DNA of 44,461 bases, taken from Poseidonibacter lekithochrous (GTDB lineage: Bacteria; Campylobacterota; Campylobacteria; Campylobacterales; Arcobacteraceae). The stretch covers positions 1 to 44,461 of the forward strand of contig NZ_JAHKQT010000012.1 in NCBI RefSeq assembly GCF_018861145.1. The letters are read 5' to 3'. The position numbers were made by a program, and so were the translations under genes. The notes under the pieces were generated by a model. The model searched no databases. It was not told where the DNA came from and was given only the letters and a program-made list of their open reading frames with translations. Positions within the stretch are counted from its first letter, which is position 1; every line of letters starts with the position of its first letter. Shown here piece by piece: positions 31,454 to 34,721 of the stretch.

Positions 31454-31465
31454 AAAAGGTTGATT

Positions 31466-31912
31466 GTGAAATCTCATACAAAAGCATATGGCGTTGTTCC
31501 TTACTTAGTTAGTAAAAATGATATAAAAGTATTATTATGTAAATCAGTTTTAAGTAAAAATAAATGGGGTTGCTTAAAGGGCATGAAAGAAAAAGATGAA
31601 AATCCATTTCAATGTGCTCAGCGAGAACTATTTGAAGAGAGTAGTATTAAAGTTGAAATAGGCCTTTTTGAAGACTATTTTGAGCAAGTAAACCTAGAAA
31701 AAGATATTGCTGTTTGGTTGGTAAATGCTTCAAATATTGAAGGTTTAGATGAGATGTTTTTTGAAGAAAAATTAAAAAGTAATTATCTCTCTTGGGAAAA
31801 TTCAAAAGTTAAGTTTTTTTCTTTAGATAAGTTACCAACTATAAGAAAAAAACAAATAAATTTAATAAATGATATTAAAACCTTTTTAGAAAATAATAAA
31901 CTGTCTTTTTAG
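31466..31912 (+). CDS. NUDIX hydrolase
   Basis: The Nudix box G-x5-E-x7-R-E-L-F-E-E-x-x-I is complete (GMKEKDEN..QRELFEESSI), with serine in place of the usual glycine after E-E-x. The frame is open from a TTG at 31460, but AAGG at 31456-31459 fits the GTG at 31466 much better, giving 148 residues. Substrate unknown; such enzymes cut nucleoside diphosphates linked to other groups. It overlaps the convergent amidase gene by 4 bp, so there is no room for a separate terminator between them. Confidence 0.85.
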   Translation: MKSHTKAYGVVPYLVSKNDIKVLLCKSVLSKNKWGCLKGMKEKDENPFQCAQRELFEESSIKVEIGLFEDYFEQVNLEKDIAVWLVNASNIEGLDEMFFEEKLKSNYLSWENSKVKFFSLDKLPTIRKKQINLINDIKTFLENNKLSF

Positions 31913-33636
31913 TCAAATCTTGCTTTCATTTGAAAGTATGTATCAATTCCATTAGCCATACCTTGTGCTAATAGTTTTTGATAAGAACTGCTGTATAAAC
32001 GCTTACTTTCAATAGGATGTGAGATGTAACCCACTTCTACAAGAATTGAAGCTTGTGGAGCATCTAGAAGTACCCAAAATGGTCCTGGTCTTGAACCTTT
32101 ATCATTTACCTTATATTTTTTACCTACAGATGCTAGCATCTCTCTTTGAACGTCTATTGATAAAAGTCTTGAATGTGTAATTTTTGGTGCATTTAATGAT
32201 GAAAGAAAAGCCTGAGTACTTGAGTTACTCATTTTTCTTATATCAGATTTATTTTCTTTTGCTGCAACTCTTTTAGCCCTTTCTGTTTTTGCTGGACTTA
32301 AATAATATGTTTCAATACCACTTACCTTTGCTGCATTCTTTTTTGCTACAGAGTTTGCGTGAATTGAAATAAATACATCTGCATTTTTCTTTAAGGCTAA
32401 GTCAGTTCTTTTACCAACTTTTATAAAAGTATCTTTATTTCGAGTAAGATAAACTTTATGACCTCTTTGTTTTAAAATATTATATAAATATTTTGCAATT
32501 TTTAGTGTTACTACTTTTTCATATCTTTTATTTGGTCCTACAGCACCTGGATCATGCGCCCCATGTCCTGGATCAATTACAATAGTTTTGCTATGAAAAT
32601 TTGGGTAAGGTTGAGTATTATTTATTTTTTGAGAATTAGTAATACCAGAAATTTTTATTGTTAATTTTCTTTTATTTAAAATATAATATACTTTTAAATC
32701 TTTTTTATTAGAGATTCTAATTCTTGTTGTTTTACTATTTTTATCTGAAACAATAATTCTATTTATTCCATCTATACTTAGTTTTATCGGTTTTGTATAT
32801 TTAAATTTTCCAGTTAAATCAAAAACATCTTCATAGTTACCATTGTTTTTATACGCAACATATGACAAATCTTTTTTTGAAAAGTTTTTATTAAACTCTA
32901 TTTCAATTGAATTATCTTTTGTATTTATTGATCTGATTTCATTTTTTGTATCTATATAATTATTAGATAGAGTTTCTTTTGTAGTAGTTTTAGGTTTTAC
33001 AACTTTTTTTACTTCTTTTATTGTTTTAGTGGCCTTTGTTGCATTTAAATCACGTATATTTATAATAAGTTGTTTATCTTTGATTGTATAGTATGTCTTT
33101 AGATTCTTTTCATTTGCTAGTACAATTCTTAATGTTTTTGCTTTAAATTGACCTATAGTGATTTTTTTTATATTATTAATTTTAAGTACAGTTGGTTGTG
33201 CATCTTTAAAATTACCATTAATATCAAAAACATCTTTATATATATTTCCTTGATGAAGTTCAAAAAATTTAACATAATCTTTTGATATCTTATTATTAAA
33301 ATTTACAATTATTGAATCATTTTTAGTATAAACGGAATTTATTGAATAATTAGAATTATTTGATACTTTTGGTATAGATTGTTTTGTAGTTTTGTTTTCT
33401 CTTTTAAGTAAAATTTCTAATTTTTTTTCATCTGGAGTAGTGTTTTTTTTAAGTTTTTTACCTAAAACAATAATTTTTTCAAGCTGATTAATTTTTTCTT
33501 GAGAGTCTTTTCTTAAAACTGCTTTTAAGTAGCTCATTTTGGCCGAACGATATTCTTCTTTTAAATCAGCAGCACAAAGCGCTGAGATTGAAAAGCTAAT
33601 ATATAGAAGAATTAGAATAAAAAATTTATTAAAAAT
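31909..33636 (-). CDS. amiA: N-acetylmuramoyl-L-alanine amidase, exported, probable ATT start
   Basis: From the first ATG (33537) the protein has no export signal. The same frame is open upstream and encodes a clear signal peptide (FNKFFILILLYISFSISALCA-A). No ATG, GTG or TTG occurs there. An AAGGAG at 33644-33649 is followed after 7 nt by ATT (33634-33636), the best start, giving 575 residues; ATA at 33640-33642 is the alternative. Two AMIN-like beta domains linked by a Lys/Thr-rich stretch precede an Amidase_3 zinc domain with DPGHGAHDPGAVG, a metal glutamate in KRYEKV, SIHANS and the catalytic glutamate in ILVEVGYISH. It cuts septal peptidoglycan in the periplasm. The ATT codon lies 2 nt past the stop of the preceding gene. 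Confidence 0.88.
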   Translation of the reverse strand: MFNKFFILILLYISFSISALCAADLKEEYRSAKMSYLKAVLRKDSQEKINQLEKIIVLGKKLKKNTTPDEKKLEILLKRENKTTKQSIPKVSNNSNYSINSVYTKNDSIIVNFNNKISKDYVKFFELHQGNIYKDVFDINGNFKDAQPTVLKINNIKKITIGQFKAKTLRIVLANEKNLKTYYTIKDKQLIINIRDLNATKATKTIKEVKKVVKPKTTTKETLSNNYIDTKNEIRSINTKDNSIEIEFNKNFSKKDLSYVAYKNNGNYEDVFDLTGKFKYTKPIKLSIDGINRIIVSDKNSKTTRIRISNKKDLKVYYILNKRKLTIKISGITNSQKINNTQPYPNFHSKTIVIDPGHGAHDPGAVGPNKRYEKVVTLKIAKYLYNILKQRGHKVYLTRNKDTFIKVGKRTDLALKKNADVFISIHANSVAKKNAAKVSGIETYYLSPAKTERAKRVAAKENKSDIRKMSNSSTQAFLSSLNAPKITHSRLLSIDVQREMLASVGKKYKVNDKGSRPGPFWVLLDAPQASILVEVGYISHPIESKRLYSSSYQKLLAQGMANGIDTYFQMKARFD

Positions 33637-33638
33637 TT

Positions 33639-34721
33639 TTATTCTCCTTGCGTTAATTTTTCGATTAATTCTTTTACTGAAATAATTTTATTTATTCTAT
33701 ATCCATTTGCGCCAGTAAAAAACAGTCCGGTTTCTTCATCGCCATTATAAGCAGCGCCTAATCTATCTGCAATACAATATCCTACTGCTTTTGCTTCAAC
33801 ACCTCTATTACAAGGAGCTACACAGTTAGAAATACATTGTACTTTTGGTGCTGTATTATTTTCCATAGAGAATTGTAAATTAGTTTTCACAGATCTAGCT
33901 GGTAATCCAACAGGAGATTTCCCTAATTTAATATCTTCTTCTTTTGCATTTAATAATACATTTTTTAAATTTGGATGGGCATCACATTCGTATGTTGCAA
34001 TAAATCTTGTAGCCATTTGTACACCAGTACAACCCATAGCAAGATATTTATCAATATCATTTTTATCCCATACTCCACCAGCTGCAATAATAGGAATATT
34101 CTCTCCCCAGTTTCTTGATTCTTCAATAACAGGGCCAACTATATTTTCTAGTTGGAATTCTTCCTTAAAGCAATCTTCGTATTTAAAACCTTGATGACCA
34201 CCACTTAATGGACCTTCAACAATAATTGCATCAGGAACTCTATTATATTTTTTCCATTTCTTACAAATTAATTTTAATGCTCTTGCACTTGAAACAATAG
34301 GAACTAGTGCAACATCTGGATACTCTTGCGTAAATTCTGGCATATTTGTAGGAAGTCCTGCTCCTGTAATAATAATATTAATTCCAGCTTCACAAGCATC
34401 TTTTACCATTCTTCCATAATCATTACATGCATGTAAAATATTACAAGCTAATGGAGCATCTCCACAAATCTTTCTTGCATTTGCAACAATTTCAAAGAAT
34501 GATTCTCTTGAGTAAAAGTTTAAAGCATCTTTTGGTTTATCTTTTCTCATTACAACGTGAACATCTTCACTTTTATTTCTGTAATAACCTGTACCAACTG
34601 AAGAGATAACACCAAGGCCACCTTCTTTAGATACATTTCCAGCTAATTGATCCCAACTTATTCCTACACCCATTCCACCTTGGATTATAGGGTGTTTTAT
34701 TTCATATTTACCTATTTTCAA
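33639..34721 (-). CDS. NMO/FabK-type flavin oxidoreductase (nitronate monooxygenase family)
   Basis: The 360-residue protein starts with the TIM-barrel pattern PIIQGGMGVGISW, has the FMN-phosphate motif IPIIAAGGVWDKNDI and the active-site segment SGGHQGF. A cysteine cluster near the C-terminus (C-x3-C-x3-C, later another C) is not part of the core barrel. Families with this fold include nitronate monooxygenase and the enoyl reductase FabK, and the sequence does not tell which. It lies in the conserved pyrH-rpoZ-spoT-tyrS-amidase block, 10 bp downstream of tyrS. Confidence 0.82.
   Translation of the reverse strand: MKIGKYEIKHPIIQGGMGVGISWDQLAGNVSKEGGLGVISSVGTGYYRNKSEDVHVVMRKDKPKDALNFYSRESFFEIVANARKICGDAPLACNILHACNDYGRMVKDACEAGINIIITGAGLPTNMPEFTQEYPDVALVPIVSSARALKLICKKWKKYNRVPDAIIVEGPLSGGHQGFKYEDCFKEEFQLENIVGPVIEESRNWGENIPIIAAGGVWDKNDIDKYLAMGCTGVQMATRFIATYECDAHPNLKNVLLNAKEEDIKLGKSPVGLPARSVKTNLQFSMENNTAPKVQCISNCVAPCNRGVEAKAVGYCIADRLGAAYNGDEETGLFFTGANGYRINKIISVKELIEKLTQGE
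33644..33649 (-). promoter_or_regulatory. Shine-Dalgarno that decides the amidase start
   Basis: AAGGAG on the minus strand lies 7 nt before ATT 33636 and inside the last codons of the upstream flavoprotein gene. It is the strongest ribosome site in the area and is more than 100 nt from the first ATG of the amidase frame, so it supports initiation at the non-canonical codon. Confidence 0.7.

Follow-up and report, generated by a model that had tools for sequence, protein, structure and literature searches.

The window, i.e., the whole stretch of 44,461 nucleotides of Poseidonibacter lekithochrous DNA that was analyzed, corresponds to contig 44 of a 3.0 Mb genome and carries on its minus strand an NMO-family gene followed directly by an amidase gene (Table 1). 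The 3' end of the NMO gene contains the Shine-Dalgarno (SD) sequence of the amidase gene, and 2 nt separate its TAA stop (33641-33639) from an ATT: the junction reads ...ACG CAA GGA GAA TAA in the NMO frame and ...GCA AGG AGA ATA AAA ATT TTT AAT AAA TTT TTT ATT CTA... in the amidase frame. The latter holds no ATG, GTG or TTG between the upstream stop (33688-33690) and the putative signal peptide, the first such codon being ATG 33537, 33 codons past ATT 33636. Translation from the ATT yields the N-terminus (M)FNKFFILILLYISFSISALCA-AD, which resembles a signal peptide by eye, and the stretch from ATT 33636 to ATG 33537 encodes (I/M)FNKFFILILLYISFSISALCAAD, with the putative signal peptide likewise assigned by eye. 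The original prediction, namely that a putative export signal is encoded ahead of the first ATG without any NTG start and that AAGGAG stands 7 nt before ATT 33636, was borne out by inspecting the frame back to the upstream stop and by matching the motif in the sequence, the peptide being recognized by eye and every coordinate it gave proving correct. The hydrophobic core of this N-terminus is kept in relatives. Promoter-like matches ahead of the amidase gene did not exceed chance, and RNA structure at its start gave no special signal (z 0.01).

Table 1. Features of the amidase start region and the adjoining genes, in window coordinates.
Feature	Position	Strand	Basis
ATT start codon	33634..33636	-	sequence; conserved in main clade as ATT/ATA/ATC
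Shine-Dalgarno AAGGAG, 7 nt before ATT	33644..33649	-	sequence; spacing in relatives
Nearest in-frame upstream stop	33688..33690	-	reading frame
ATA triplet overlapping the NMO stop, rejected as start	33640..33642	-	1 nt from SD; GTA or out of frame in relatives
First ATG in frame (codon 34), discarded as start candidate	33535..33537	-	missing from relatives such as L024
Putative signal peptide, ~22 codons	33571..33636	-	by eye
Amidase_3 (N-acetylmuramoyl-L-alanine amidase) CDS from ATT, 575 codons + stop	31909..33636	-	translation, Pfam
Amidase stop-to-stop ORF	31909-33687	-	reading-frame listing
Amidase_3 catalytic domain	31942..32583	-	Pfam PF01520, residues 352-565
NMO-family gene (PF03060), upstream of amidase	33639..34721	-	Pfam

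The encoded protein is a member of the Amidase_3 family, matching PF01520 with an E-value of 6.7e-46 and a score of 156.9 bits (cut-off, 27). It is not classed with the E. coli AmiA/AmiB/AmiC type, as its scores lie below the NCBIfam equivalog cut-offs (AmiC, 123.5 vs 700; AmiB, 109.1 vs 532; AmiA, 103.3 vs 400). It is probably the daughter-cell-separating enzyme of this marine Arcobacter relative. The N-terminal half of the protein contains two copies of a unit of ~96 residues (32650-32937 and 33055-33342, minus strand), 38% identical to each other (E 1e-18) and without a Pfam name; shorter relatives (~460 residues) may carry one copy.

The gene is present in 10/10 Poseidonibacter genomes, all of which show AATAA(A/G)AATT after AGGAG or GGGAG. 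To place this arrangement in the family, 104 Arcobacteraceae genomes were sampled and start regions were obtained for most of them; 74 genomes were scored in the main clade, which comprises 12 genera and the bulk of the family. The NMO gene is the neighbor of the amidase gene at almost all loci compared among relatives. In 73/74 main-clade genomes, the amidase gene begins with AUH (ATT in 66, ATA in 4 and ATC in 3), located 5-7 nt behind GGNG; the exception, L057, has TTG, and neither ATG nor GTG occurs in any of the 74. An in-frame NTG between the upstream stop and AUH was found in 0/73 genomes. The arrangement is thus not attributable to chance, being kept throughout the genus and in 73/74 genomes of 12 genera with no upstream in-frame NTG.

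Since AUH was picked during scoring, the count of 73 isoleucine codons at position 1 is partly circular, and the informative observations are instead the single failing genome, the lack of an upstream NTG in the 73 genomes, and the frame relations between the two genes. Relative to the NMO gene, the amidase frame takes all three possible values (51, 20 and 2 genomes), with AUH always just behind the switch. In-frame stops also close the frame just upstream: L047 and L075 have one immediately adjacent to ATT, and L006 has a TAA a few codons ahead of ATT. An internal isoleucine codon would also be limited to ATT, ATC and ATA, and the third-base pattern is therefore no proof by itself; the case is carried by the stops, the frames and the SD. 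An upstream start, the ATA triplet, a frameshift fusion and an internal isoleucine codon are all hard to reconcile with three frame relations, in-frame stops and AUH at the switch. The site itself is confirmed as a start site by the deeper Arcobacteraceae genera g6, g8, g9, g13 and g20, which have TTG, ATG or GTG at the corresponding position. Judging from these comparisons, the start codon of the amidase gene is very probably AUU at 33636; its location, its retention in relatives and the lack of canonical alternatives can be read directly from the DNA.

Similar starts appear in other families of the order. ATA is found in 15/15 genomes of family f4 (once as ATT-ATA), where an in-frame stop leaves one codon before ATA at the loci L107, L109, L144 and L149; family f18 shows ATT, ATC or ATA in 14/15, and in f11 an ATA directly follows a stop. 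Families f3, f12, f13, f15 and f16 use canonical starts. Families f7, f9, f10 (presumably the Campylobacteraceae), f20, f21 and f22 are ambiguous and were for the most part left out, since their SD region often includes an in-frame ATG (as in ATGGGGAAAATA), 9 nt before AUH; the exception is one f7 locus (L110), where no NTG occurs for 56 codons. On a FastTree phylogeny of the amidase domain, in which many nodes are weak, a minimum of 7 shifts between AUH and NTG, in either direction, and 13 switches among ATT, ATC and ATA are required. The conserved feature is the class AUH, which extends over most of the family and into three or more further families of the order. Searches of the literature, largely outside subscription journals, turned up no account of such starts in Campylobacterales.

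Additional genes with AUH starts were sought in 1.2 Mb of genome G004 and 0.4 Mb of genome G002. The scan of G004 singled out uvrB and an HD-domain gene. Among 30 Arcobacteraceae (L267-L296; L270 is G000:C25:9632-11602, minus strand), uvrB starts with AUH in 17, mostly ATC, with ATG in 9 and with TTG in 4, while the HD-domain gene (L297-L326; L300 is G000:C9:106760-108442, plus strand) has ATA, ATC or ATT in ~26/30, as counted by eye. Comparing 221 ortholog pairs of G004 and G002, with a coding filter against antisense shadow ORFs, about five were found to have in both genomes a conserved 5' edge with SD and AUH and no canonical start. These are the amidase and uvrB together with three genes compared in G004 and G002 and named by eye, for a small zinc-ribbon protein, an unnamed membrane-type protein and an ABC ATPase of glycine-betaine type. 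In the window itself, among 21 ortholog pairs, the amidase is the only gene with an AUH start, two other listed rows being antisense shadow ORFs. The infC gene of the window's genome (L106) has a TTG start behind AAGGAAG instead of AUH, so the classic IF3 autoregulation via AUU is not seen there; its IF3 aligns with E. coli IF3 at 45% identity. The original view that ATT starts are mainly a matter of infC does not apply in this setting, where infC has TTG while uvrB, the HD-domain gene and a few others have AUH.

Two of the three bases of an AUH triplet pair with the CAU anticodon of the initiator tRNA. We infer that the AAGGAG inside the NMO end would place a ribosome at AUU 33636, with coupling or re-initiation the likeliest route when the NMO ribosome terminates at the UAA 2 nt upstream, and that tRNA-fMet would read AUU with a third-base mismatch, leading to weak initiation. 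IF3 should lower initiation at this codon, as it disfavors AUU read by the CAU anticodon, a third-base mismatch, in vitro (PMC10158994); the strong SD and the NMO ribosome terminating 2 nt upstream would offset the mismatch. The expected result is a low, NMO-linked and IF3-sensitive synthesis of the amidase, and selection would keep AUU, AUC or AUA such that a septum-splitting periplasmic hydrolase is made in small, adjustable amounts relative to its operon neighbor. A low dose is plausible for a septum-splitting hydrolase of a kind required for cell separation in C. jejuni, where amiA mutants form unseparated chains (PMC6767375). The retention of a weak start instead of AUG in almost all relatives suggests that low or regulated output is favored; against this reading, the deeper relatives manage with TTG or ATG at the amidase start. 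We assign a probability of roughly 0.7 to the whole explanation, an AUU start with coupled, IF3-sensitive weak initiation that holds a lytic enzyme low, and regard the dose-limiting, IF3-sensitive function of the AUU start as reasonably likely.

The same start position could alternatively reflect simple tolerance: in an AT-rich lineage with strong SD sequences and lenient initiation, AUH would drift in at low cost, without any regulation of the amidase. The use of AUH by other genes (uvrB, the HD-domain gene and the ortholog pairs above) agrees with this account, and the flips of uvrB between AUH and ATG or TTG indicate that an AUH start can come close to neutral in some genes. The amidase gene, however, has drifted to neither ATG nor GTG in the main clade and to TTG once, and its AUH recurs in distant families, unlike that of uvrB, which makes tolerance alone an unlikely explanation.

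The remaining alternatives concern the start position. Initiation at ATA 33642 would give the N-terminus MKIFNKFF with a typical lysine-bearing n-region, and the genus keeps this in-frame triplet; nonetheless, a single nucleotide separates it from the SD, the overlapping GAA-TAA dictates its sequence, and it reads GTA in L022 and is out of frame in L055. With three frame relations and AUH always at the switch, AUH rather than ATA 33642 is taken as the start, and initiation at this ATA is highly improbable; of the two codons originally proposed, a non-canonical start thus holds, with ATT favored and ATA not. A start at ATG 33537, producing a shorter cytoplasmic protein, would be chosen by an annotator limited to ATG, GTG and TTG, as it is the first canonical codon, but no SD precedes it, the conserved hydrophobic N-terminus would be lost, and the ATG is missing in several relatives (e.g., L020-L022 and L024, the latter having no canonical codon for 275 codons). 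This start, impossible in many relatives, can be set aside, as can the sequencing error or point mutation initially considered, because close relatives likewise have ATT. Fusion of the amidase to the NMO protein by frameshifting or readthrough, suggested by genes that touch, is just as remote, since the three frame relations would call in turn for a -1 shift, a +1 shift and readthrough of a stop, inspection by eye showed no slippery heptamer, and the putative signal peptide would be buried.

The preferred reading, a weak AUU start limiting amidase synthesis, has partial counterparts in known systems. To our knowledge, conserved AUH starts have been described for very few genes, above all infC. 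The E. coli infC AUU is a conserved low-efficiency start in a gene that encodes the discriminating factor itself, which provides autoregulation. In E. coli MG1655, infC begins at ggaggaataaggt ATT, i.e., at AUU behind a strong SD, as does the amidase gene; the amidase, however, is an envelope enzyme and not IF3, and infC itself has TTG in this genome. The non-canonical GTC start of Streptomyces sigR is repressed by IF3, and its replacement by a canonical codon leads to overproduction, which sets a precedent for a weak start that establishes the correct dose (PMC5472188). Both sigR and the amidase gene combine a clade-conserved non-canonical start with a strong ribosome-binding site and misannotation by standard tools (PMC5472188), but sigR uses GTC and not AUH, encodes a regulator and not a hydrolase, and its IF3 repression has been demonstrated, whereas that of the amidase is a prediction. 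AmiA of C. jejuni and Helicobacter pylori is a cell-separation amidase of the same order (PMC6767375); in contrast to the gene described here, family f10 has ATG at or near the same site.

Deep AUH conservation in a cell-separation enzyme, together with the further cases, raises a testable question: is initiation fidelity used to adjust how much of a dangerous or rare protein is made? A wider AUH class in the order would be a more interesting lead than the amidase alone. Tentatively, AUH could represent a recurrent, gene-specific expression class in Campylobacterales, above all in Arcobacteraceae, comprising perhaps 2% of genes (among them those for the amidase, UvrB, the HD-domain protein, the small zinc-ribbon protein and the ABC ATPase), sharing control by IF3 fidelity, and clipped or missed by standard annotation. 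Annotation limited to ATG, GTG and TTG clips export signals, and ORF calling in the Arcobacter butzleri genome considered these three codons only (PMC2147049).

Some minor observations accompany these results. The small zinc-ribbon protein (G004:C1 ~751764-751955, minus strand, within L244) starts with ATA in G004 and ATC in G002, has no ATG, GTG or TTG for 49 codons, and is likely missing from annotations. The ABC transporter ATPase, of glycine-betaine type by eye (G004:C1:1077865-1079091, plus strand; L260), has ATT in both G004 and G002. In the window, the start of a Nudix-type gene (31460-31912, plus strand) is probably GTG 31466 and not the listed TTG 31460, judging from its G004 ortholog, which has ATG at the position matching GTG 31466.
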